From Halosimplex rubrum (lineage in GTDB: Archaea > Halobacteriota > Halobacteria > Halobacteriales > Haloarculaceae), in NCBI RefSeq assembly GCF_013415885.1, contig NZ_CP058910.1, positions 4,402,001 through 4,466,000 on the forward strand: a stretch of 64,000 nucleotides of DNA. The letters run 5' to 3'. A program made the translations under genes and the position numbers. Under the pieces are notes generated by a model. The model was not told where the DNA came from. It did not search any database and worked only from the letters and a program-made list of their open reading frames with translations. Below are positions 6,135-26,373 of this stretch, one piece after another (the stretch's first letter is position 1; each line of letters starts with the position of its first letter).

Positions 6135-6605
6135 CTAATCTGAAGAGTACTGCTCCAGTTTTGTCGGAGACGAATTGCCCGGCGATGCCGCTCCAGATCC
6201 GTTCAGAACGTTTAACTCCGAGTCATCATCGAGGTAGTGAAACGAGACTGGTGGAACGAAGTCATCGATTCGTTCTCTTGGATCGATCGCTTCGTCAAGC
6301 TCTAACACTTGATCGATTCCGATGGCGTATCCTTCTTCGGTGTCTTCGAAATACGCCATAAATCGGTCTCTGTCATCCATTCCAGATTGGTGCCCGAACT
6401 GTTCCCAGAGCTGGCGGGGACTACCTTCTGAGACCTCAGCCATCGTGAACGCACCGACAACTCGCTGAACAGGTGACGACGAGTAAAGATAGACTGTCTC
6501 GACTGCTTCAGGATGGCTGAACGTCGTCTTCCTAAACTCGTACTTCTTACTCCCCCGGAGAATCTTCTCTGCGAACTCCGGCTTAATCGAGAGCAAAACG
6601 TTCAT
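6135..6605 (-). CDS. ASCH-domain protein
   Basis: The protein has 156 residues from the ATG at 6605. The N-terminus LLSIKPEFAEKILRGSKK followed by YEFRK is the typical opening of ASCH domains, a PUA-like fold thought to bind RNA or modified nucleotides; YLYSSSPVQRVVGAF fits the next conserved strand block. The start is decided by a strong Shine-Dalgarno (AAGGAGGA) a few bases before it. It begins inside the 3' end of the upstream PIN-GNAT-EVE gene (23-base overlap), so the two are translationally coupled and probably work together. The last 20-30 residues are low-complexity and polar. Confidence 0.8.
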   Translation of the reverse strand: MNVLLSIKPEFAEKILRGSKKYEFRKTTFSHPEAVETVYLYSSSPVQRVVGAFTMAEVSEGSPRQLWEQFGHQSGMDDRDRFMAYFEDTEEGYAIGIDQVLELDEAIDPRERIDDFVPPVSFHYLDDDSELNVLNGSGAASPGNSSPTKLEQYSSD

Positions 6606-8079
6606 TGATTCCTCCTTTCTCCCGAATGTACTTATAGTCTTCATCAGATATCTCCGACATCACTTGAAGCGGCGCCGTCAATATATCAGTATCTTTTAAC
6701 TCTTCAAAGCTAATCGGACTCTCTAAGTCAAAATGCCACCGAAATAGAAGAACAGTGGTTGGTGACTCTGCCATCTCTTGAATATCTGTTCTAGCAAAAA
6801 CTGACCGCTTGCCCACGACTCTCGAGATACTATCGGCGTTAGTCATTCCAAAGTGTACCTCTTCTAGTACGCCCAACGAGGTCACCTCTTTGTTATCATG
6901 TGACCGATAGAAGAGGAGAATGTCACCCGCTTCCAGTTTCTTGTTTTTCGCACCAGTTAGGTAGGCCTTCTTGATAGCGTTACCCTCCGACTGAAACTCT
7001 CCCACGAATTCGTGTAGCGGGATATCTCGACCAGAATACGCCGGAAATAGCTTGTTGTGATATTCCGGACGGACTGGAATCAGATACTTGTTAACTTCCG
7101 GCCCATCGACGAAAGAGGGATAGAATTTTCGGGCCGTTTCCAGTGGCGACGGGTTATCCCCTTGACCGGGAGTCAGTCGCTTCAGAAAAATCGACTCACC
7201 GTCTACCTCTCTCGAGACCTCTTCGAAGCCGTAAGTCTCTAACAGCTCTACGAGAACGTCATTCGATCCTTCCACGTAGTGGGTAAGATACACCTCCTCG
7301 TGTCCACTGTTGACCGCTTCTCGAATAGCGATCGATATCAGTAGTTCTCCAATCTTCGATCCCCACTTTCGCTCAGAAACCTTTAGCGTGGAGATCTTTA
7401 GACGGCGACTCCGCCCAAGTTCCGGTTCTGAACCGATATTCTCGACTTCGTTACTCTTCAGGATCAGTATGGCGCCCAAGGAATCGTCCTGATTGTAGTT
7501 GACCCACGCTGTCCTGTCCGACTTCGAGCGTGCCCACCCCTCGAAGTCGTATTCAGACTTCAGTGAGTCAAATATTGGGTCGCTAAGGTCCAGATCCCCT
7601 ACGGTCGTCTTGCGAATTGCCCTTGGTCCTTGAATCGTAGCCGTTTCTGACTCGAAGAACTCCCGCCCTTCTTCGATCGAGAACACTCTGTCTTCCAGAC
7701 CCAGCTCGAAGCCCTTGCTGTGAATTTCCTTGTCTTCCGTAATCAAAAAGTCCACATCGTCATTATACACGGAGTAGAGGAGCGCGTTATCAACCCGGTC
7801 GTTGCTCTTCGTAGCTAGTGGCACTTTCGATCGGAACTCCGTATCGTCTTCGTTTGGGTATTCAGGAAACTCCAGGACTACGTAGGTATCTATCCGTGAT
7901 TCGTTCTGTTGCCGTCGCTCTGCGTCGTGGTCGTTCCTAATTTCCTTTTCAGATTGAGGATGAATGAGAATCCGGTGTCCCTCTTTCTTGAGAGAGTTTT
8001 CGAGCCGTCCCAGATCTTCCGGGACGATGGGGTCGTTTTCCCGATGGATGAAGATGTTAGTATCGAATAGAATGTCCAT
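6583..8079 (-). CDS. PIN-GNAT-EVE three-domain fusion
   Basis: The protein has 498 residues. Residues 1-150 look like a PIN ribonuclease domain: MDILFDTNIFI (D6), a conserved acidic pair in KSNDRVDNALL and D in FLITEDKEI. Residues about 185-305 look like a GNAT acetyltransferase (RRLKISTLKVSERKWGSKIG then ETYGFEEV), although the acetyl-CoA loop has K where the second glycine is usual. Residues about 325-490 resemble an EVE/PUA-like domain (YLIPVRPEYHNKLFPAY, AGDILLFYRSH). An ASCH gene overlaps its 3' end. A nuclease, an acetyltransferase and two PUA-like readers suggest sensing or acting on modified nucleic acid or charged tRNA; this is inference. Confidence 0.7.
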   Translation of the reverse strand: MDILFDTNIFIHRENDPIVPEDLGRLENSLKKEGHRILIHPQSEKEIRNDHDAERRQQNESRIDTYVVLEFPEYPNEDDTEFRSKVPLATKSNDRVDNALLYSVYNDDVDFLITEDKEIHSKGFELGLEDRVFSIEEGREFFESETATIQGPRAIRKTTVGDLDLSDPIFDSLKSEYDFEGWARSKSDRTAWVNYNQDDSLGAILILKSNEVENIGSEPELGRSRRLKISTLKVSERKWGSKIGELLISIAIREAVNSGHEEVYLTHYVEGSNDVLVELLETYGFEEVSREVDGESIFLKRLTPGQGDNPSPLETARKFYPSFVDGPEVNKYLIPVRPEYHNKLFPAYSGRDIPLHEFVGEFQSEGNAIKKAYLTGAKNKKLEAGDILLFYRSHDNKEVTSLGVLEEVHFGMTNADSISRVVGKRSVFARTDIQEMAESPTTVLLFRWHFDLESPISFEELKDTDILTAPLQVMSEISDEDYKYIREKGGINERFALD

Positions 8080-8841: not shown

Positions 8842-9006
8842 GAGTATACAAGGAGATCGTCACGAACTACAATAAAGGTTAGTTGACCAAAGTGAAAATG
8901 AAACAGGTCTCGTGTCGACCTCCCTTTAGGCGACGTAGATCACGACAGCGACGAGCCCGGGCTGAAGTACCGGCACCGGCCGGATACCGATCCCTGCTCA
9001 AGAACG

Positions 9007-9250
9007 ACGAGGACCGGACACGACAACGAGTGCTGAAAGCCCTCGGCGGGCTCGCGGTCGCTGCGCGACATATCCGCGCTCTCCGCACCGCCCGCGCGGA
9101 TAGTGGCCCGTGCAGGCAACTGTGGGCGCGAGCCCGCCTCGCCCTTTCAGTCCGCCAGGATTGTGATTGTGTTCTCAGTCGTTGCGGTCGGCTGATTGGG
9201 TAGTTTCTGACGCCCCGCCCCGCTCGCCGCGTGCCGCCCTCCGCTTGCTC
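9007..9250. repeat. dispersed GC-rich repeat, copy B
   Basis: Shares long near-identical blocks with copy A at 4252-4614, including GAGGACCGGACACGACAACG and the 3' block TAGTTTCTGACG followed by GCCCCGCTCGCCGCGTGCCG. Copy B lacks the triple hairpin found in copy A. It opens an 895-base gene-free interval (8842-9736). Confidence 0.7.
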
Positions 9251-9413
9251 ACGGCTCCCTCGCGGGTCACTTCGTTCCCCGCTCGGTCCGAGGCCTCCCA
9301 ACGGTCGGCCTCGCTGTCGCCGTTCGCATCGAGGCGCTCACGAGGCGCTCGCGGGACTCGCGCCTCGCAACGTTCGCGCCTCGCTTCGCTCGCGACCGAC
9401 CATTCCGGGCATG

Positions 9414-9735
9414 CGGGCGCTCGCCGCACCGCGAGCGCCCGTTCCGGGCTAAAATGCATGTGCCTTCGCGCCAGCACCAAGCGCGCTTTCGGTTGCGTCT
9501 CCCTGCGGTCGACGGACGCGAAACCGGCTTGTGTGCTGGCCGCTCGCTCCGGGCGAGACGGCGCGCGGTGCTGGTTGTGGCGTGCTCGACAGCGCGTCTC
9601 GCTCGCGCCCAGGGGGCGCTCGCGAAGGCGCGAGCGAAACGCGCAGACGTGTCTGTCGGACATCGTCGTCGGAAAACCGCGATGTTAGGGCATCGCGGTG
9701 GCGGCGCGTGAGCGCCTTCGGTCTTTGGTGAGACC
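9414..9735. repeat. run of inverted repeats before the OB-fold gene
   Basis: Consecutive inverted repeats read directly: 9414-9441 (11-bp perfect stem CGGGCGCTCGC, 6-base loop); 9592-9609 with 9627-9644 (18-bp arms GCGCGTCTCGCTCGCGCC, one mismatch, 17-base spacer); 9677-9698 (8-bp stem CCGCGATG, 6-base loop); 9703-9716 (GGCGC, loop GTGA); and 9720-9735 (GGTCT, 6-base loop), which ends one base before the ATG at 9737. The density suggests a functional DNA or RNA structure rather than plain spacer. Confidence 0.65.
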
Positions 9736-9736
9736 A

Positions 9737-10546
9737 ATGTCTAGTGAAACGCGATTCGGTAGTAAAGTTTCGGACGCACAGGCAGATGACCAAGATGTCG
9801 AAGCACCGATCGAGGAGGAGCCGGAGCTGCGGCGGTCGGTCGACCAGGAGATCCAGGGCAAGGTCGATACGAACCACCCCGAGGCCAGGCCGGAGGGCAT
9901 GACCCTGGAAGGTGAGGAGAAGTTCCGAGCGCGGGAGGCCGAGATTCGAAGCACTCGCCAGCGGCTGGACAGGCGTCAATCGCCGGGCCGTGAGCAGCGG
10001 ACGCGCGAGGTGGTCAAGTCACAGACGCGCTACGCCCAGGAGGAACCCCCCGAAGATCCACGCACCAAGTTGAGCAAGGAGCAGTTGGCAGAAGTGAACG
10101 AGCGCGCAGCGCAGATCGCCGAGGAACTGGACGGGCGTTCCAGGGCTGGGGCGGCCTACCGACTCGCACAGAAGGTCGCCGAAGGCGTTGACATGCTGAA
10201 CGCGGCGTTGCTGGTCAAAGAGGAGTTGCACGCCTCACCCGGCGTGGCTGTCCCGATCGGGACGCTCGAGGAGGTCCCACGGTCGACAGTCGATATTGAA
10301 GGGACAATCGTGCAGTTGTGGAATTCGGATAATCCCCGGATTCAGCAAGTGGGGTTGATCGAGGACGACACAGCGCGAACGAAGTTCACTGTGTGGGAGC
10401 GAAGCGACCAGCCGTGGGTCGAAGAGGGCCAGACGGTGCGGCTGCGCCACGTCGAGAAAAGTTGGTACGAGGGCCGCGTCTCGGTAGCCGTCACTGGCTG
10501 GAGCACCATTGAGTTCCCGGAACGCGGACGGTGGTGGGGCGAGTAG
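9737..10546 (+). CDS. OB-fold ssDNA-binding-like protein (RPA/SOSS-B-like)
   Basis: The protein has 269 residues from the ATG at 9737; an upstream in-frame codon at 9698 lies inside a hairpin. Residues 1-120 are highly charged and probably disordered or coiled-coil, with repeated E/R runs. Residues about 120-170 are helical (LAEVNERAAQIAEELDGRS). Residues 185-269 read as an OB fold: VDIEGTIVQLWNSD, IQQVGLIEDDTARTKFTVWE, EGQTVRLRHVEKSWYEGR, as in haloarchaeal RPA-like proteins. It probably binds single-stranded DNA during replication or transfer of the element. The run of inverted repeats directly upstream may be its target or its regulator. Confidence 0.75.
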   Translation: MSSETRFGSKVSDAQADDQDVEAPIEEEPELRRSVDQEIQGKVDTNHPEARPEGMTLEGEEKFRAREAEIRSTRQRLDRRQSPGREQRTREVVKSQTRYAQEEPPEDPRTKLSKEQLAEVNERAAQIAEELDGRSRAGAAYRLAQKVAEGVDMLNAALLVKEELHASPGVAVPIGTLEEVPRSTVDIEGTIVQLWNSDNPRIQQVGLIEDDTARTKFTVWERSDQPWVEEGQTVRLRHVEKSWYEGRVSVAVTGWSTIEFPERGRWWGE

Positions 10547-10823: not shown

Positions 10824-12758
10824 CTAACCGCGCCAATCATAGTGCTTTGAGTACTCGGCTCTCCGTTTCTCAACCATCTGTTGTGCCCAGCTGACTGCGT
10901 CTTCAAGCCGTTCTTGTGGGCGGAGATCGAATTCAAAGGATTTAATATAATTTACATCAACTAGTTCAGCCCCGCCAATCATTTTCGTTGAGCCTCCATC
11001 TTTTGGGGTTAGACGTGCAAGAACGGTTCTTTGTTTCTCAGCAAGTCGATACTCATCGATATGACCAGAAGCTTCTCGATCCACCATAATACAAAATCCT
11101 GCGAGCCGCATTGTTGTTGCGACACTTCCAGAGAGATCCTGTGAGGGGAAATCCGGAAGATCCTTATCAAGGTGCGCATCGTATCCCATCTCTTCTAATT
11201 CCTGCTTAATATCAATTAGTTCCGCTTCTCTTGCCCCAGTGTAGCTCCCGAGAACGTATACCGAGTTCTCACTCACCTCCATGACTTTCCCTAGAATATC
11301 ACTAAATTCGGGTTCTGCAGGGAGATTTACTTTCCCTTCATAACTAGTCGAGTCAACTTTCCGGAGTTCTCGGTTTAATCCTGGGATTGCGGTTGGTTCG
11401 ACTGCGGGGATATATTCAGAAAGATCAAGTGTATGTCCATTCTCTCGGATCTCCTCGATTGAAACTGTTTTTGCAATCTCGCTATCGTCATTCCACTCAT
11501 CTAGTTCATCAATGACTCGTTCGATACCGTCTTCCGACAAATTATTCCTTGATTCGAATTCTGTGTAGAATTCCTCATCCATCGCGTGGACAAAACGAAC
11601 TTCGTTCTGGCGACCGCTTTTTTTATCCTTATTTATGACTAATATCGCGACAGGGAGACTTGTGTTTGCATAAAGGTTTGGAGGAAGACCAATAACCGCT
11701 TCAACGAGATCGTTGTCAACTAAATATTCACGGTAAACGCGGTCAGACTGCCGGTAGAGAACTCCATGTGATATTAATATCACTCCCCTACCGCCCTCTG
11801 TATTCTCAGCGGGATCGCGAAGCTGGTTAAGAGCATGAAAAATAAAAGCATAGTCGCCCTGATCAGCACGGGGTAAAGGAAGCTCAGTTGATTGGCTGAA
11901 TCGATGAAACCGGTCCTGTTCAAATTCCTCTTTTGCCCAACTTGGGGAGACGGGAAAATCTGCGAAGACGCAGTCAAATTGTTGTAATCTCCCATTTTCC
12001 GTAAACTGCGGGTTCCTGAGTGAATCTCCAATGTGAATTTCTCCATTAAGGCCGTGTGCCTCGAGATTCAAGCCAGCTAAAGAAGCCGTTTGAGGGTGAA
12101 TCTCTTGGCCAGTTAACTCTAATCCCTTTCTATTTGTCTGGGTTTCAAAATTCTGGCCAGCTTTCACTAACAATCCCGCGACGCCGACAGTTGGGTCATG
12201 TACCGATTCTCCTTCTACAAAAGGCCCTGCTATCCTCGTACATAACTGTCTCACTCCACGAGGTGTCGAGTTCTGTGATCCCTGCTTTCCCTCAATGCGA
12301 GCTAATTGATCGAGGAGGTACTCAAACGCGGCCCCTAACTCAGCTGGGGCCGCACTATTTGAATCCAATTGACATCTACTAAGGTGATCTGTGAGTTCCT
12401 GAAGAGCCCCGTCGTGACCAAGTTTAGTGTAGTCCGGTTTAAAGGCCGTTGTCGGGGCTAATGGGTCATTCGGAACATTCGAGATCGCCTGATTCAGTCC
12501 TTCATCGAGGTGGCTCGGGATATTGACTGTCCCCTGCCATCTATTTTCTTTTGGAAGATGAGGAAGGCTTCTGAGATCTGGGTGGTTTTCTGTGGCTGTG
12601 GCATCTAATTTATCTCGTAGATTAGACTCATCTGATGCCATTTTGTAGTATAATAGAGGGATGAGGAATTCTCGGTATTCTGTAACGCTGAGGTTGCCAC
12701 GAAGAATTTCGATCGATTCGTAGAAATATTCCTTGAGAACCGATTTAGAATACGGCAT
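10824..12758 (-). CDS. pseudo-HsdM methylase fused to TIR/NDT-like domain
   Basis: The protein has 644 residues. Residues 1-150 match an HsdM N-terminal helical domain and 160-460 an HsdM methyltransferase core: STPRGVRQL (HsdM: YTPREVVRL), DYAFIFHAL, and LVEAVIGLPPNLYANTSLP. The active site is broken. The SAM loop is DPTVGVAGLL (188-197) where HsdM has DPCCGSGGML, and the catalytic N-P-P-F is D267-F-P-V270. Residues 498-610 form an unrelated alpha/beta domain (VYVLGSYTGAREAEL, then SGHIDEYRLAEKQRTVL with E569) resembling TIR or nucleoside-deoxyribosyltransferase folds. No HsdS or HsdR lies beside it, so it appears to be a stand-alone gene. The gene is markedly AT-rich, indicating recent transfer. 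A defence role is inferred. Confidence 0.7.
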   Translation of the reverse strand: MPYSKSVLKEYFYESIEILRGNLSVTEYREFLIPLLYYKMASDESNLRDKLDATATENHPDLRSLPHLPKENRWQGTVNIPSHLDEGLNQAISNVPNDPLAPTTAFKPDYTKLGHDGALQELTDHLSRCQLDSNSAAPAELGAAFEYLLDQLARIEGKQGSQNSTPRGVRQLCTRIAGPFVEGESVHDPTVGVAGLLVKAGQNFETQTNRKGLELTGQEIHPQTASLAGLNLEAHGLNGEIHIGDSLRNPQFTENGRLQQFDCVFADFPVSPSWAKEEFEQDRFHRFSQSTELPLPRADQGDYAFIFHALNQLRDPAENTEGGRGVILISHGVLYRQSDRVYREYLVDNDLVEAVIGLPPNLYANTSLPVAILVINKDKKSGRQNEVRFVHAMDEEFYTEFESRNNLSEDGIERVIDELDEWNDDSEIAKTVSIEEIRENGHTLDLSEYIPAVEPTAIPGLNRELRKVDSTSYEGKVNLPAEPEFSDILGKVMEVSENSVYVLGSYTGAREAELIDIKQELEEMGYDAHLDKDLPDFPSQDLSGSVATTMRLAGFCIMVDREASGHIDEYRLAEKQRTVLARLTPKDGGSTKMIGGAELVDVNYIKSFEFDLRPQERLEDAVSWAQQMVEKRRAEYSKHYDWRG

Positions 12759-17746: not shown

Positions 17747-18043
17747 TTTCACATTCACTACTCTTTCCTTCCCATCATTGCTGAATACTTGTATCTCCCG
17801 GACTGAAAGCCAGAAATACGGAGTAAATTTTTACTGAGTCCGTCAGACTTAATCCTTTCACAAACCACCCCAAATTGGCCGAGCACCCAGCCGACGCCCC
17901 CTCCGAGCACTACAAAGTAGAATACTGCGCTGCGAGCGACCGTTGGCGCCCGGGTCCGAACGGCGATTTCCTGGCAAGTCGTGTTCCGGTATTTTTCTCG
18001 CGGGGACCGAATGAGTGGCCCCACACGTGGGCCGGGTCACGCA

Positions 18044-18439
18044 ATGAATCTCGAAGTTGTCGACCCTCACAGTGAGGCATTGTTCGAGTTCCTCTGGTGT
18101 CCGGTCTGCGGACACGAGGTGTTCAGTCACATTCCCTTCGAGGTGGTGTTCTGCAAGGACTGCAACACACGGGTCGACCTCCGGGAGTCCCACGAGACAC
18201 GCGGCTACGAGGAAGCGGTCCGCGTCTGCTTCGACACCGAGACGACCTGGAACCTACACGTCGACGAGAAACTCCGACGCGATCTCCCCGACGGGTCAGC
18301 GCGGGTGAAGATCATCGGTGCGTCAAGTGCCTACGACGTCGACTGGTGGAGTCCGGAGCCAGGCGAGGCGTGGCGGCCGGTCGAGCGTGGGGAGTTCAGC
18401 GATATCGAGAAACTGGACGAGGTGTCAAACCTGGCTTGA
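18044..18439 (+). CDS. haloarchaeal zinc-ribbon protein
   Basis: The protein has 131 residues from the ATG at 18044; an earlier in-frame start at 17981 gives an unconvincing basic extension. CPVCGH near residue 19 and CKDCN near residue 37 form a four-cysteine zinc ribbon. The rest is acidic and ends EFSDIEKLDEVSNLA. Such small proteins are common on haloarchaeal plasmids and integrated elements, but I cannot give a function. It lies upstream of the ArdC-like gene in the same orientation, separated by 309 bases that contain its neighbour's regulatory repeats. Confidence 0.6.
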   Translation: MNLEVVDPHSEALFEFLWCPVCGHEVFSHIPFEVVFCKDCNTRVDLRESHETRGYEEAVRVCFDTETTWNLHVDEKLRRDLPDGSARVKIIGASSAYDVDWWSPEPGEAWRPVERGEFSDIEKLDEVSNLA

Positions 18440-19770: not shown

Positions 19771-20514
19771 TCAGACCGTCAGCGTGTTTCCGTTTAGCCT
19801 GAGCCACTCACGACGATCCTCATAATCCGGGATGAGCGCACCAACTGTATTCCAGAACGAGTCAGAATGCTCCTCGTGTATTGAATGCGCCAGCTCGTGA
19901 ACGATGACGTAGTCCTGGATTCGGACGGGTGCCAGTATCAGTCGCCAATTAAGACGAGCCGTACCGTCGTCGTATTCTCCCCATCGGCCATCGATCTCTC
20001 CAGCTTCAATAGACACTTCGTCGACCCCTAGCCTCGATTCGTACCGAGATGCCCGTTCCGGAAGTTCCGCTTCAGCCTGCTCAATGAACCAGTCGACAAC
20101 TGCCTGGCGCTTTCGGCGAATACTGACCTTGTCACCGTCGGCATCGAACCGGTGGACACGGAGCGTAAACGTCTGCTCATCGAACGACAGCTCGGGTTGG
20201 GACACATCCGCCTCAACGACTTCGAGTGGATACTGCCGCCCCCGGTATTGGAGCTTCTCACCGCTCAAATACTCCTTCGGATACGGCGGCCCCGCTTGCT
20301 CTTTCAGGCCGTACAGTTTCTCCAAGATCCATTCCTGACGGGAGTCGAGTACTGACTCAACGTCGGTCATCGTTGCATCCATCGGGGCCTTCACGGCCAG
20401 CTCCAGAGACTCGTCGATCGAGAGAGTCATCGTCTCCCGGTTTTCGGACCAGTCGATCGTGTACGGAACGACTGTCTGGCCGATGTGGTGGTGGCGTTGG
20501 AGTTGCTCGCTCAT
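19771..20514 (-). CDS. YgjP/SprT-like metallopeptidase of the hsd operon
   Basis: The protein has 247 residues. VIVHELAHSIHEEHSDSFW (H206, E207, H210, and a third histidine H216) is the zinc signature of the YgjP/DUF45 family, related to SprT-type peptidases; the tail DYEDRREWLRLNG also fits. Its ATG overlaps the hsdR stop by 4 bases (ATGA), so it is the last gene of the hsdM-hsdS-hsdR operon and translationally coupled. This peptidase is often found after hsdR in type I restriction loci, where its job is not well defined; control of HsdR level or cleavage of a partner is possible. Confidence 0.8.
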   Translation of the reverse strand: MSEQLQRHHHIGQTVVPYTIDWSENRETMTLSIDESLELAVKAPMDATMTDVESVLDSRQEWILEKLYGLKEQAGPPYPKEYLSGEKLQYRGRQYPLEVVEADVSQPELSFDEQTFTLRVHRFDADGDKVSIRRKRQAVVDWFIEQAEAELPERASRYESRLGVDEVSIEAGEIDGRWGEYDDGTARLNWRLILAPVRIQDYVIVHELAHSIHEEHSDSFWNTVGALIPDYEDRREWLRLNGNTLTV

Positions 20515-23474
20515 TGGTAGTGAGCGCGCGCCAATTCGATGACGCGGCTGGTAAGTTCCCGGCGTTCCTCAGCTGAGAGCTCGATCTCAGACCGGTACAG
20601 TTGGCCAGTCACTTCCTTGCGCATCTTGTTCTGCAGATGCGTTCGTTCCTTCCACTCGACCTTGGTCACGAACTCCTCAACGGTCCCGACCAACTCAGCA
20701 GTGAGTTCGACGAAGTCCGCTTCTTCGATATCGTGTTCGCCCAACACGTCCTCGACCGCGTGGTAGAACGATAGGTCGGTTTCGTCACGGAGACCCTTGT
20801 TGCGGGCTCTCTTGTCGCGCGACCGGATCTCGTCCATCAGCGTCCGCAGCTCCTCGATGGTTTTCTGTTCGCTAAGTCGCCCTTCACGGTACTTCTCAAT
20901 GAGCTCCTCCAGCCGTTCTTTGAGAGACCCGTATTGGACCGGGTCCTCGTCCAACCGGACGTTGATCTCGTGCTCGATCGCATTCTGCATCTCACTCGCA
21001 CGGGCTTCGTCGCTCTCTAAGTCTTCAAGTTTCGCACCAAATTCGACCTCGTCCATGATCGAGACCGGCTCGTCGTTCAGGATCTCGATGCCCTGTGAGG
21101 TGATGTGGTCTTGGATGAGCTTTCGCACCTTCGCCCCTGCTCCTTCGAGGTTCATCGTCTCGTCGCGGTAGCGTTCCTTCGCCTTTCCGTAGATGGTGCT
21201 GAGCTGGTCCAAATCGTCGCGGTACGGGTTCGCCATCGGGTCCGGGAGGACAATGTCCATCAACTGCGAAAAGCGCTTGAACGCGTTCTTGAACTCGATG
21301 CGTCGGTCCTCGGGTTCGAGCGACTGAACACACGCTTCGACATCGTCGAGATCCTCGAAGAACGAGACCGCCTTGTTGTGGGCTGCCTCAAGATCTCCCT
21401 GTTTGTCTTTAACCGGCACCATCGCCCGCTCGACGTCCTTCGAGCTGAACATCGCCAGCGCCTCCTTCAGTTCGTCCGAGACGCCGTAGTAGTCGATGAC
21501 GAGCCCATGGGTCTTGTCCTCGAACGGACGATTCACGCGAGCGATCGCCTGTAACAGGCCATGTTCACGCAGCGGTTTATCGAGGTACATCACCTGGGCC
21601 ACCGGTGCGTCGAACCCCGTCAGGAGCATATCGCAGACGATGAGCAACTCGACCTCGCCATTGGGATCGACGAACGACTCCTTGTACTGGCTCTTCTCGG
21701 CGTCGCTTGGCGTCCATTGCTTGATGTGCTCCTCGTCGTTGTGCCCCTCAGAGACGATCACTCGCGACTCCGGCCCGTTCAGGCTGTCGAGGGTTTCCTT
21801 GTATCGGATCGCCGCCTCCTTGCTGGTGGTGACGACCATGCCCTTGAACGGGGCCGGAACGTCGTTTTCGAAGTGCTCGACAATATCCAGCGCGACCCGG
21901 TCGATGCGCGGCTGTGCCTCCGCGAGATCCTGCGTACGGGCGTAGCGCTTCTGAATCTCTGCTTTTTCTTCCTCGGTCTTCTCCGAGAAGATACGATCGA
22001 ACAGTCGGTCCAGCGTTTCGCCTTCGAGGTGGATGTCGGCGAGACGGCCCTGGTATAGAATTTCCACCGTCGCGCCGTCTTCCAGCGACTGGTCAATGGT
22101 GTACGTGTCGATATAGTTTCCGAACGTCCTGCGAGTGTTGACTTCGTCTTTCTCGATCGGCGTACCAGTGAACCCGACGTAGAAGGCGTTCGGGAGCGCA
22201 GTCCGCATATTATTCCCGAGATCCTTGTCCTGGGTCCGATGGGCCTCGTCAGCCATGACGTAGATGTTCTCGTTCCGGGAGAGCACGGGGAACTCATCTT
22301 CTTCGTCGTCGGTGGTCTGGAACTTGTGGATGAGCGTGGTGATCGTCTCGCCGGCGTCGTAGCTAAGCCGATCACGGAGGTCCTCGATGCTATCGGCCTT
22401 CTTCGGGTTCGGGAAGCCACAGCGTTCGAAGGTCGCGTGAATCTGGTCGTTCAGCGCCCGCCGGTCGGTGACAAGCACGAGCGTCGGATCGTCCTTGAGT
22501 CGGCGGAGCTTCAGCGCGAGGAACAGCATCGTGAGCGATTTCCCCGAGCCCTGGGTGTGCCAGACGACGCCGCCGTTGGCTTCGCGCTGGCCACGCTTGT
22601 CGATCCGCTCGAGGGCCTTCCGGACCGCTCGATACTGCTGGTAGCGAGCGACCATCTTGATCGCCCCGCTCTGGCGGTTCTCGAACACCGTGTAGTGGCG
22701 CAGTTGGTCGAGCAGGCGTTCGGGCTCGAACAGCGCGTAGAGCATCCGGTACTGGTCGGGGAGATAGCCGTCGAGATCGAACAGGCCGATGAGTTCGTCG
22801 TCTTCCAGCGGGTAGGCGTCCCGCCAGGGCTTGTACTGGTCTTTCGGTGTCCCGTATGTCCCCATCACCGCACCCTCCATCCAGACGGCGACTGAGAATT
22901 GATTATACCGGAAGAGTTCCTCAGCGCCTTCCGACTCACCCTCCCGTTCGTTCTGGTACCGGGTGAGCTGATCGAGCGCCTCTGAGCGTGGTTCTTTGAT
23001 CTGGGGGCTCTTGCACTCGACAACCCCGAGTGGGATGCCGTTGACGAACAGCACGATGTCGGGCTTGACGACATCGACTGGTCCCGCGACCCGGAACTGA
23101 TTGAGCGCGAAGAAGTCGTTGTTCTCGGGGTTCTCGTAGTCGATGTACTGGACCGTCTGATGTTGCTTCCCGTGGCCGCGGTCCTGCTCGACGGCGATGT
23201 GACGGACGAGTTTCTCGTGGATCTGCTCGTTCTCGTCCATCGTACTCGTCCCGGCGACCTGCTGGATCTCCCGAACGGCCTTGTTCAGATTGTTCTCGTT
23301 GAGCCAGGGGTTCAGGCGCTCGACGGCGTTACGCAGTCGGGATTCGAGTACGGCCGAGGATTCCGTCTCGCGGGGGTCGGCCCAGGTGGTCTGTTGCTGG
23401 TCTAAGACCACCCAGCCGAGTTTCTGGAGAGTTTCGAGGGCGGGTCGTTCGGACTCGGCGTACTCGTCAGGCAT
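20511..23474 (-). CDS. hsdR: type I restriction enzyme R subunit (HsdR)
   Basis: The protein has 987 residues, normal for HsdR. The N-terminal nuclease domain shows D139 in VVKPDIVLF and E153-C-K155 in GVVECKSPQ (PD-(D/E)XK). The helicase motor follows: HTQGSGKSLT (Walker A, residues 306-315), DEAHRT (409-414) and later motor motifs (MLLTGFDAP, ARVNRPFEDK). The C-terminal 300 residues are helical, for assembly with HsdM and HsdS. The enzyme translocates and cuts DNA that lacks the cognate methylation. It starts 2 bases after the hsdS stop and overlaps the next gene by 4 bases, so the operon is tightly coupled. Confidence 0.95.
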   Translation of the reverse strand: MPDEYAESERPALETLQKLGWVVLDQQQTTWADPRETESSAVLESRLRNAVERLNPWLNENNLNKAVREIQQVAGTSTMDENEQIHEKLVRHIAVEQDRGHGKQHQTVQYIDYENPENNDFFALNQFRVAGPVDVVKPDIVLFVNGIPLGVVECKSPQIKEPRSEALDQLTRYQNEREGESEGAEELFRYNQFSVAVWMEGAVMGTYGTPKDQYKPWRDAYPLEDDELIGLFDLDGYLPDQYRMLYALFEPERLLDQLRHYTVFENRQSGAIKMVARYQQYRAVRKALERIDKRGQREANGGVVWHTQGSGKSLTMLFLALKLRRLKDDPTLVLVTDRRALNDQIHATFERCGFPNPKKADSIEDLRDRLSYDAGETITTLIHKFQTTDDEEDEFPVLSRNENIYVMADEAHRTQDKDLGNNMRTALPNAFYVGFTGTPIEKDEVNTRRTFGNYIDTYTIDQSLEDGATVEILYQGRLADIHLEGETLDRLFDRIFSEKTEEEKAEIQKRYARTQDLAEAQPRIDRVALDIVEHFENDVPAPFKGMVVTTSKEAAIRYKETLDSLNGPESRVIVSEGHNDEEHIKQWTPSDAEKSQYKESFVDPNGEVELLIVCDMLLTGFDAPVAQVMYLDKPLREHGLLQAIARVNRPFEDKTHGLVIDYYGVSDELKEALAMFSSKDVERAMVPVKDKQGDLEAAHNKAVSFFEDLDDVEACVQSLEPEDRRIEFKNAFKRFSQLMDIVLPDPMANPYRDDLDQLSTIYGKAKERYRDETMNLEGAGAKVRKLIQDHITSQGIEILNDEPVSIMDEVEFGAKLEDLESDEARASEMQNAIEHEINVRLDEDPVQYGSLKERLEELIEKYREGRLSEQKTIEELRTLMDEIRSRDKRARNKGLRDETDLSFYHAVEDVLGEHDIEEADFVELTAELVGTVEEFVTKVEWKERTHLQNKMRKEVTGQLYRSEIELSAEERRELTSRVIELARAHYQ

Positions 23475-23476
23475 AG

Positions 23477-24814
23477 TTAGTCGGTGTCAACGCGAACTTT
23501 GCCAGTGAGGAGATCCTGCATGAGGCCGCGTTTTAGTTGTTTTAGCTCGATCTTCCGTTCCTTCTCTATTGATACTCTCTGGTCAATAGTAGATAAGATG
23601 TCGACGATTTCTCGCTGTTCTTCGGTAGATGGAACCGGAATGCGAAGTTCATTAATCAATCCAGTATTCAACCCGTCCATTATCGCTCCGTGGCTGAATG
23701 ACTCGATTTGGTGCTTGACAATACGTGAACTTCGCAGAACTCCACTCAGATACTCCGGAAGACAGAATGAAGGATCAATACGAATCCTGAACAAATGATA
23801 GTCCATTATTCCTTTTCTTGCATCATCAGGAAGTACAGCAGCATCTCCTATCGTTCCCATCCGTGTTAAGAGGACATCGTCAGGCACAACCTGATATTTT
23901 TCTAAATCATGGTATTTCTCTTCCGTCACATACTGGCCTCCTTTCTCGAAATCTCCAGAATTGATGTTCGCTTGTCGATATATTTTGTAGCCCGAGTCGG
24001 TGAACTCTTCCTTTTGGAGTTTACTTCCGTATGGTCCGGTTTGAACCACACTGGACGCTGGAGTGGGAAAGTTTTCGAGCCGTCTCAATTCCCATGACTC
24101 AGGTAGGGGTATTGAGAGTGGCCCGACCACTACATCACTTTTAGATTCGCTTCGAGCCCCATTATCAAGGAGCCGGTGGGCGATTCCCTTTTTCAGTTCC
24201 TCGAACTTCTCGATAATCTCGTCTGTCTGTTGAATCTGCTCGTCGACCGTCGAGAGGATGTCGACGACTCGGCGCTGTTCGGGGAGCGGGGGGAGCGGGA
24301 TAGTTAGATTCCCTTTGAATACGTCACTCGGAACCCGTTGGCGTCCAGTCGAACCTTCCATCAAGGAAATAGTGACCGACCGAAATTCGGGGAGATTGGA
24401 GAGGTAGTAGACAAATCGCTCCTCAATCACGCCCTCGCAAGGGTGGAAAACGAGGAACTCTGTAGAGCCAGAACCGACCTCGGTACTCATTCCGTCGATG
24501 AATGTGATCTTCCCGTTTTCAGTACATGGCGTGATTTTAGCGTAGACGGTATCTCCGTTCTTGAACCACGTCGTCGTACAATCGTCTTTCTCCCGCTGAG
24601 TCCAGTATTCGATGGTCTGCTTTTCTTCATCAACAGCGTCCATCGGGAGGTAATCGAACGGGCCGTTGTCGGGCTTATCGTATTTCGGGTTAAGCTCTAT
24701 GGCCTCGTCGAAAGGAACGATATCCCACTCATCCGGTATCGGAATCTCACGAGGTCCGAGTTGGACGGTTTTGTAGCCTTCTTGCTGATCGGACTGTTCC
24801 AAGGCTTCACTCAT
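23477..24814 (-). CDS. hsdS: type I restriction enzyme S subunit (HsdS)
   Basis: The protein has 445 residues with two target-recognition domains, each followed by the conserved spacer helix: PLPPLPEQRRVVDILSTVDE after the first and VPSTEEQREIVDILSTIDQ after the second. TRD1 begins GPREIPIPDEWDIVPF and TRD2 begins GPLSIPLPESWELRRLENF. It sets the DNA sequence recognised by the HsdM and HsdR subunits. The ATG overlaps the hsdM stop by 4 bases. The gene is visibly AT-richer than hsdM and hsdR, most strongly in the TRD2 half (about 23480-24170), which fits exchange of recognition domains. Confidence 0.93.
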   Translation of the reverse strand: MSEALEQSDQQEGYKTVQLGPREIPIPDEWDIVPFDEAIELNPKYDKPDNGPFDYLPMDAVDEEKQTIEYWTQREKDDCTTTWFKNGDTVYAKITPCTENGKITFIDGMSTEVGSGSTEFLVFHPCEGVIEERFVYYLSNLPEFRSVTISLMEGSTGRQRVPSDVFKGNLTIPLPPLPEQRRVVDILSTVDEQIQQTDEIIEKFEELKKGIAHRLLDNGARSESKSDVVVGPLSIPLPESWELRRLENFPTPASSVVQTGPYGSKLQKEEFTDSGYKIYRQANINSGDFEKGGQYVTEEKYHDLEKYQVVPDDVLLTRMGTIGDAAVLPDDARKGIMDYHLFRIRIDPSFCLPEYLSGVLRSSRIVKHQIESFSHGAIMDGLNTGLINELRIPVPSTEEQREIVDILSTIDQRVSIEKERKIELKQLKRGLMQDLLTGKVRVDTD

Positions 24815-26373
24815 CGATATTCTAACTCCTCCATGTACTCCTGCAGTTCCTCGTCGCTCTCCTGACGCTCCTCAGCAAGCCGATCCAACTCCCGTAGCTT
24901 CTCGCTCACGTCGATGGGTTCCTCTGGCTCGGTCGTATCGACGTAACGCGGCACATTCAGGTTCCAGTCGTTCTCCTCGATTTCCTCTAGGTCGACGAGC
25001 CGACTATGATGGTCCTCTTCGCGCCCCGTCTGGAACGTCTCAGCGAGGTACTCAACACCCTCATTAGTTAGTTGATTCTGATTCGAGAGCTCTTCGAACA
25101 CCTGTACGTCCGACTCTCGAAGCGTCTGATCCTCGGCGTAAATGAAGTGGACCTTCTCAGCTCGCTCCGCGGGCTTGTCCTTGTTCAAAATAAGGATACA
25201 GCCCGGCGAGGAGGTGTTGTAGAACAGGTTCTCCGGTAGCGCGATCACAGCCTCGACGAGGTCGTTCTCCAGAATCGGCTTGCGGATCTTCTTTTCCGAA
25301 CGCGAGCGGAATAGCACCCCGTTGTCCATCACGACACCCGCCTTTCCAGTCTCGTTGAGCGAAGCGATCATGAGCTGAATCCAAGCCCAGTCGCCGCGGT
25401 TCGACGGCGGGAGCCCGTACGGGAAGCGGTTGTACGGTTCGTTCTCTTCGACCCACTCCTTGCTCCACTCTTTCTGGTTCCACATCGGGTTCGCGATGAC
25501 CCTGTCGAACACCTCCAGCTCGTCATGCTTATTGACGCGCTTCGGTTCGGTGATAGTGTCGCCCTTCTCGATCTTGGCGTCGTAGAGTTCATGCAGCAGG
25601 ACGTTCATTTGGCCGATGGCCCACGTGTTCAGGTTTTTCTCCTGACCGTACAGCGAGATGTCCTCCATATCGCCGCCCGACTCACGGATGTGCTCGGCGG
25701 AGTAGATGAGCATTCCACCGGAGCCACAGCAGGGGTCGTAGACGCGATGCCCGGGCTCGGGATTGACGCATTTGACGATGAGGCGGACGACTTCCCGTGG
25801 CGTGTAGAACTCACCGCCTTTCTTGCCTGCGTCGTCGGCAAATTCGCGGATGAGGTACTCGTAGGCCCGCCCGAAGATGTCGGGGTCTTCGAGGTCGACG
25901 TTCCGGTACCGGTGCTTCGAGAAGTGCGAGACGAGATCCGAGAGGAGTGAGTCGGGCAGCCGTTCCTTGTCGTTGAAGTCGACCGTCGTGAGCACACGAT
26001 CTTCGATGGGGTCGTTTTCGTCTTCGATCGCCGCGAGCGCCTTGTTCAGCGCAGCCCCCACGTCGGTTTCCTGAGCTTTGATGTGATCCCAGCGAGCGCG
26101 CTCGGGAATCCAGAACTCCTCGTGGATGTCTCGATCCTCCCGGGCAGTTGCTTCGTCGATCCCATATTCTTCGGCGACCTCCTCCGTCTCCTCGTCGAAG
26201 CGGTCGTTCGCCCGCTTGAGAAACAATAGACCGAAGATGTAGTTCTTGTAGTCCGCGGAGTCGATGCTCCCGCGCAGCTTGTCGGCAGCCGCCCATAGGT
26301 GGTCTTCGAGCGTTTCGAGAGTGAGTATATCGGGTTCCGTTCCAGGCAGCGTCGCCTGGTCGCCGTCAGACAT
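24811..26373 (-). CDS. hsdM: type I restriction enzyme M subunit (HsdM)
   Basis: The protein has 520 residues. An N-terminal helical domain (LEDHLWAAADKLRGSID, YIFGLLFLKRANDRF) is followed by the methyltransferase core: GGEFYTPREVVRL (187-199), the SAM loop YDPCCGSGGML (212-222) and the catalytic ANPMW (294-298), a normal variant of the N-P-P-F motif. It methylates adenine in the target set by HsdS and is required for restriction. It is the first gene of the four-gene operon; an inverted repeat overlapping a TATA-like element lies just upstream. It also serves as the in-window reference that exposes the broken motifs of the protein at 10824-12758. Confidence 0.95.
   Translation of the reverse strand: MSDGDQATLPGTEPDILTLETLEDHLWAAADKLRGSIDSADYKNYIFGLLFLKRANDRFDEETEEVAEEYGIDEATAREDRDIHEEFWIPERARWDHIKAQETDVGAALNKALAAIEDENDPIEDRVLTTVDFNDKERLPDSLLSDLVSHFSKHRYRNVDLEDPDIFGRAYEYLIREFADDAGKKGGEFYTPREVVRLIVKCVNPEPGHRVYDPCCGSGGMLIYSAEHIRESGGDMEDISLYGQEKNLNTWAIGQMNVLLHELYDAKIEKGDTITEPKRVNKHDELEVFDRVIANPMWNQKEWSKEWVEENEPYNRFPYGLPPSNRGDWAWIQLMIASLNETGKAGVVMDNGVLFRSRSEKKIRKPILENDLVEAVIALPENLFYNTSSPGCILILNKDKPAERAEKVHFIYAEDQTLRESDVQVFEELSNQNQLTNEGVEYLAETFQTGREEDHHSRLVDLEEIEENDWNLNVPRYVDTTEPEEPIDVSEKLRELDRLAEERQESDEELQEYMEELEYR

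Follow-up and report, generated by a model that had tools for sequence, protein, structure and literature searches.

What can a protein do that retains most of HsdM, the methylase subunit of type I restriction-modification (RM) systems, and that ends in a domain which ordinary HsdMs do not carry? The question is raised by one gene in a 64,000-nucleotide stretch of Halosimplex rubrum DNA (hereafter, the window). A first-pass annotation, made from the letters alone, had described its product as a catalytically dead HsdM scaffold fused to a TIR-like or nucleoside-deoxyribosyltransferase (NDT)-like domain, and had proposed it as a defence protein. A conserved HsdM-like scaffold with a probably TIR-like domain, in mobile or defence-rich surroundings, is what the present analysis also supports; several of the accompanying claims had to be revised.

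Architecture of the fusion gene

The gene and its parts, with the evidence for each, are the following.

10824..12758 (-), HsdM/TIR-like fusion gene, 644 aa (open reading frame; four full-length relatives)
11394..12758 (-), HsdM-like part, residues 1-455, made of HsdM_N-like helices and an N6_Mtase domain (Pfam; alignment with ordinary HsdMs)
12255..12287 (-), pocket loop around GSQNSTPR, residues 158-168 (alignment; about GG[QE]F[FY]TP in ordinary HsdMs)
12168..12197 (-), motif I DPTVGVAGLL, residues 188-197 (alignment; subfamily norm DPT[VCAS]GS[GAS]GML)
11949..11960 (-), motif IV D-F-P-V, residues 267-270 (alignment; subfamily norm N-F-P-F)
11307..11393 (-), junction at residues about 456-484, the place of the lost HsdS-binding tail (alignment; PMC9613975 for the function of the tail)
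10827..11306 (-), C-terminal TIR-like alpha/beta domain, residues about 485-644, with the invariant E569 in SGHIDEY

The open reading frame was confirmed at 644 residues, as was the AT-richness of the gene (46% GC, compared to 62% for the window). N6_Mtase (PF02384) was matched in Pfam at residues 141-452, with 210.7 bits for a cut-off of 20.4 (E 4e-62), and HsdM_N gave a weak match at residues 17-91. Against the NCBIfam hsdM equivalog the fusion scored 122 bits, below the cut-off of 242.75; the true HsdM of the window also falls below it, at 228.5 bits. The strings DPTVGVAGLL, D-F-P-V and SGHIDEYRLAEKQ are all present in the fusion protein, and DPCCGSGGML and N-P-M-W in the HsdM of the window (24811-26373), as had been reported. 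The separate C-terminal domain is likewise real, and absent from ordinary HsdMs.

A family under purifying selection

Using the C-terminal part as a query, three further full-length fusions were found among 391 haloarchaeal genomes, in Natrarchaeobius chitinivorans, Haloarcula sebkhae and Halarchaeum rubridurum; a fifth was found in PLSDB, on plasmid pHGLR3 of Haloferax gibbonsii. Because the same fusion recurs at four other loci, it constitutes a family rather than a chance event. Its five members are spread across several haloarchaeal lineages, one of them being plasmid-borne, and the GC content of their genes is 46 to 51%, under the 62% of the window. The window copy is 45 to 48% identical, over its full length, to the fusions of Natrarchaeobius, Haloarcula and Halarchaeum. 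In the HsdM tree the fusions require two changes, and a single origin is recovered in 40% of bootstrap trees. No relative of the fusion was found in the viral contigs searched, the matches in the phage records searched were ordinary HsdMs only, and a literature search retrieved no HsdM-TIR fusion.

For the Haloarcula/Halarchaeum pair, dN/dS was 0.22 in the HsdM part and 0.04 in the C-terminal part; for the Natrarchaeobius/Haloferax pair, the values were 0.12 and 0.11. Purifying selection thus acts on both halves of the fusion. Across fusion groups, identity is about 41% in the HsdM part and 56 to 67% in the C-terminal part. The selection test contradicts the notion of a decaying hsdM, fused by accident, pseudogene-like and without function, which we consider very improbable: the long branch of the fusions and the loss of 36 out of 100 non-pocket positions that are invariant in ordinary HsdMs would suit it, but the frame is open and the architecture the same in five genomes, with dN/dS of 0.04 to 0.22.

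Catalytic motifs of the HsdM part

The first-pass annotation had regarded both motif I and motif IV of the fusion as abnormal, by comparison with the window's own HsdM. The ordinary HsdMs of the fusion's own subfamily give a different picture. All 28 of them have N-F-P-F as motif IV, 27 (one exception) have DPT[VCAS]GS[GAS]G[MF]L as motif I, and they also carry a pocket loop of about GG[QE]F[FY]TP. Since DPTVG and N-F-P-F are the subfamily norm, the contrast with the N-P-M-W HsdM of the window mixes two subfamilies, and motif I as a whole is not anomalous. What stands as genuine departures of the window copy are the D for N and V for F of D-F-P-V, S193V within motif I, and the GSQNSTP loop. 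The ordinary HsdMs nearest to the fusion are encoded on haloarchaeal and Salinibacter plasmids, in complete hsdM-hsdS-hsdR operons of which almost every one also includes a SprT gene. A literature search returned nothing on the NFPF motif.

The pocket is not in the same state throughout the family. The Natrarchaeobius and Haloferax gibbonsii fusions have the full catalytic set (NFPF, GGQFYTP, DPTVGSAGML), while the Haloarcula and Halarchaeum fusions have DFPI and GGGFITP; three out of five, including the window copy, therefore have a degenerate methylation pocket. For methylation by adenine methylases, the aromatic residue of motif IV matters. As it is lost in the window, Haloarcula and Halarchaeum fusions, methylation by these three is unlikely, to judge from their motifs. 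The description of the protein as catalytically dead may thus hold for these copies; it is not a family trait, because the two others keep the full set. The fusion is conserved in four relatives, but not with D-F-P-V: two of them have N-F-P-F and two D-F-P-I. Homologues that combine the same C-terminal domain with an intact motif IV and with adenine methylation had been named as the case that would speak against the proposal; as far as sequence can tell, half of this case exists, in the form of relatives with the intact motif and the domain.

A selective loss of catalysis in the window copy was considered and is unsupported. Among columns invariant in ordinary HsdMs, this copy retains 14 of 20 in the pocket and 64 of 100 elsewhere (P = 0.80), so that the pocket is eroded no more than the rest. 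Judged by these columns, the erosion of its HsdM part is general, and not pocket-specific.

As a separate observation, some type I operons contain two HsdMs (L045:7983-12415; also L138/L146 and L139/L147). In both genome pairs read, one HsdM is N-F-P-F and the other N-F-P-Y. This parallels the NPPF/NPPY pair of HsdMs in PacII, which makes m6A and m4C (PMC9613975).

Loss of the HsdS-docking tail

The HsdM fold had been described as kept end to end. This is not so: in the alignment, all five fusions lack the C-terminal tail by which ordinary HsdMs bind HsdS. Their sequence diverges from HsdM shortly past the start of the tail and then continues into the new domain, which takes the place of the tail. 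In PacII, the tails of the M subunits and HsdS together make up a four-helix bundle, and deletion of the tail abolishes M-S assembly (PMC9613975). Since the docking tail is lost in all five, canonical work with HsdS is unlikely, even for the fusions with an intact pocket. The first-pass annotation had supposed that the HsdM part senses methylated or modified DNA; such a role is hypothetical. No target-recognition domain (TRD) or HsdS partner was found for the fusion, and no hsdS remnant lies beside the gene, the only hsdS found in the search being that at 23477-24814.

The C-terminal domain

No match above any cut-off was obtained in Pfam or NCBIfam for the C-terminal 160 to 170 residues. The nearest approach was TIR_2, with 14.8 bits for a Pfam cut-off of 28 (E 0.04); NDT and DUF4062 had zero Pfam matches up to E 10. 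In the AlphaFold2 model of the domain (pLDDT 42), strands and helices follow one another as in TIR/flavodoxin folds. Its best Foldseek match in the PDB is BcThsB (E 1.3e-4), and 29 of the top 50 matches, counted manually for a query model of pLDDT 42, are TIR-containing chains. The models of the domain and of the whole protein were built from four sequences only and are poor (pLDDT 42 and 45), which makes the Foldseek result suggestive rather than conclusive. In VIA-align, whose fold list excludes NDT and DUF4062, TIR was tied with other alpha/beta folds at Z 6-7. The hhalign comparisons with haloarchaeal TIR and NDT sets were non-significant, with a probability below 1% for the four haloarchaeal NDTs.

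The glutamate singled out in the first-pass annotation, E569, proved invariant in the 15 copies of one alignment (A7) and also in a wider one that includes distant relatives (A8). It is placed in the helix after the third strand, as is the Glu of TIR domains. From the Foldseek matches and this invariant Glu, the domain is best read as TIR-like. Foldseek favours TIR, but the profiles are non-significant and the model is poor; the name TIR-like, rather than TIR, is used for this reason.

The domain is also the C-terminal part of proteins of 330 to 375 residues with other N-terminal parts, which occur in haloarchaea and in a single genome from a different family of the phylum. A more distant copy occurs in a Priestia plasmid protein, encoded beside a DUF2326 protein; the idea that the N-terminal part of this protein is an effector-associated death-like domain was dropped, as Pfam holds no such match. 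Distant copies were also seen on pentapeptide-repeat proteins outside the haloarchaeal order (L117, L118), and annotated pentapeptide proteins of bacterial plasmids bear one as well.

With such a variety of partners, the HsdM part could be a mere oligomerising or DNA-tethering platform, a viral factor acting directly on the TIR-like domain. The better conservation of the C-terminal half across groups and its union with several unrelated N-terminal parts are in line with this; the HsdM part, however, is maintained by purifying selection and is almost complete in each of the five fusions, and we think a platform role unlikely.

The same domain also ends CarB in six genomes of one genus (L029, L030, L031, L033, L034 and L036), with the Glu retained and the SGH loop degenerate. 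Its presence on a housekeeping protein implies that it is not always an effector. The C-terminal region of CarB is allosteric in known enzymes. The main rival to our explanation draws on this: the C-terminal domain would bind a nucleotide-like ligand, which it may also do on CarB, and regulate an orphan HsdM that still methylates, at least in Natrarchaeobius and H. gibbonsii. It was raised because of the CarB copies and of the two fusions with intact NFPF, GGQFYTP and DPTVGSAGML. We rate it as rather unlikely, given that the fusion has no target-recognition subunit of its own and has lost the docking tail in five cases out of five, that three of the pockets, that of the window copy among them, are degenerate, and that the domain occurs with unrelated partners too.

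Genomic setting and mobility

The gene had been described as alone, with no hsdS or hsdR beside it. This is correct for its immediate neighbours, but the window holds a complete type I RM operon, which begins 7 kb from the fusion gene and shares its strand; a transposase-like gene separates the two. In two relatives an operon of this kind is adjacent to the fusion. The components of the window's operon are listed here.

19771..26373 (-), complete type I RM operon, of the type adjoining the fusion gene in two relatives
24811-26373 (-), HsdM
23477-24814 (-), HsdS
20511-23474 (-), HsdR
19771-20514 (-), SprT-type metalloprotease

At the Natrarchaeobius and H. gibbonsii loci, SprT-HsdR-HsdS-HsdM is the immediate neighbour of the fusion gene and is convergent with it, so that an RM operon is adjacent or within 8 kb at three of the five loci. 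No RM operon was found within about 8 to 10 kb of the fusion at the Haloarcula and Halarchaeum loci. HsdMs at least 89% identical to that of the window are present in 13 of 381 genomes, two of which are fusion carriers; this co-occurrence gives P = 0.006 (Fisher test) when genomes are treated as independent, which they are not fully. The fusion gene was absent from 11 other loci of that RM operon, 20 kb being read at each. A comparison of the Natrarchaeobius locus with genome G174 reveals a clean 2.3-kb insertion, flanked by SprT and by a neighbour gene that is shared, with the fusion gene as its only content. Given that this insertion contains the fusion alone and that the operon is absent at two loci, we conclude that the fusion is a separate single-gene cassette, which tends to lie near the RM operon and is independent of it.

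The proximity to RM operons at three of five loci, together with the co-occurrence, might mean that the fusion is an accessory M subunit, replacing one HsdM in the neighbouring type I complex and damping or redirecting restriction with no killing. This seems quite unlikely to us: the HsdM-HsdS docking tail is missing (PMC9613975), the tree places the fusion and the neighbouring HsdM in different HsdM subfamilies, and two loci have no RM operon nearby.

Other features of the surroundings were recorded. Two adjacent genes at 6135-8079 (-) match the PADLOC candidate system PDC-M11 (A, E 1.8e-160; B, E 1.7e-47), and a GC-rich segment (8879-9737, 68% GC) with long arginine-rich open reading frames on both strands lies beside the AT-rich island. 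A small zinc-ribbon-like gene at 17981-18439 (+) shares 77 to 80% DNA identity with L024:1808-2272 and L025:6356-6688, which belong to the loci of two other fusion carriers. This common gene hints at related mobile elements.

A proposed sensor or decoy with a TIR-like effector

The architecture, the loss of the tail, the conservation and selection, the mobility and the invariant Glu are observations. The explanation that we tentatively prefer, while granting it somewhat less than an even chance, is that the fusion is a single-gene mobile accessory protein, probably antiviral, made of an HsdM-derived sensor or decoy and a TIR-like effector. A haloarchaeal HsdM of the N-F-P-F subfamily has lost its HsdS-docking tail and gained the TIR-like domain in its place. 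Freed from HsdS, and with a pocket that is degenerate in three of the five, the HsdM part may act as a sensor or decoy. Its binding to DNA, or to a phage anti-restriction protein that targets HsdM, would cause the TIR-like domains to gather; these would use E569 to act upon NAD+ or some other nucleotide, leading to growth arrest or to the death of the infected cell. The TIR-like fold, this activity and the triggering through the HsdM part are presumed.

Several points go against this explanation: the models are poor (pLDDT 42 and 45), TIR_2 is below the Pfam cut-off and hhalign against TIR and NDT is non-significant, two fusions have an intact-looking methylase pocket that a pure decoy does not need, the domain ends CarB in one genus, two of the five loci are devoid of a nearby RM operon, and most copies of the RM operon are without the fusion.

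A narrower version, which we consider doubtful, is that of an integrated decoy, in which an HsdM copy carries the TIR-like effector and an anti-restriction protein directed against type I RM triggers abortive infection. If true, the system would consist of one polypeptide, in archaea, built from the phage's own target, HsdM. Archaeal antiviral systems beyond CRISPR and RM are poorly known (PMC12988326). An HsdM without its HsdS dock and with a TIR-like domain offers a testable case of restriction machinery turned sensor, and an unannotated family of TIR-like domains moves among HsdM fusions, small stand-alone proteins, CarB and pentapeptide-repeat proteins.

Comparison with known systems

The N-F-P-F type I HsdMs of H. 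walsbyi PL100, Haloarcula sinaiiensis pHsi117 and Salinibacter ruber pSR56 resemble the fusion in the fold of residues 1-455 (about 38% identity) and, for two of the five fusions, in the motif set. They differ from it in owning the tail, hsdS, hsdR and a SprT gene, none of which is attached to the fusion. The Mad2 methyltransferase of MADS is comparable, being a type I-like methylase that belongs to a defence system of a non-classical kind, and gives a weak match; membership in MADS was rejected, the Mad2 score being 17.5 bits for a cut-off of 720 and no other mad genes being present among the neighbours scanned.

Thoeris ThsB and SPARTA TIR-APAZ are Foldseek neighbours of the C-terminal domain and have a Glu after the third strand, and in SPARTA the effector is also joined to a nucleic-acid-binding partner. 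Unlike these TIR effectors, the C-terminal domain scores under the Pfam TIR cut-off and is non-significant in profile comparison.

The proposed logic is shared with PrrC of EcoprrI, in which a type I RM operon comes with an accessory, potentially lethal activity. PrrC is an anticodon nuclease that guards the type I RM enzyme, is held by the complex and is encoded inside the operon (PMC3874165). The fusion, in contrast, is one HsdM-derived chain whose gene is not part of the operon and in some cases has no such operon close by, and ABC ATPase and anticodon nuclease domains of the PrrC type had no Pfam match in it. Ocr and similar anti-restriction proteins bind to the methylase core at its DNA groove (PMC3874165), and PARIS is a defence induced by anti-restriction proteins (PMC11455837). 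The trigger suggested here for the fusion would be of the same kind, a phage anti-restriction protein, whereas PARIS is an AriA/AriB system without an HsdM part. The guarding by PrrC, the binding of the methylase core by Ocr and the induction of PARIS are precedents with which a sensor or decoy built from HsdM would fit.
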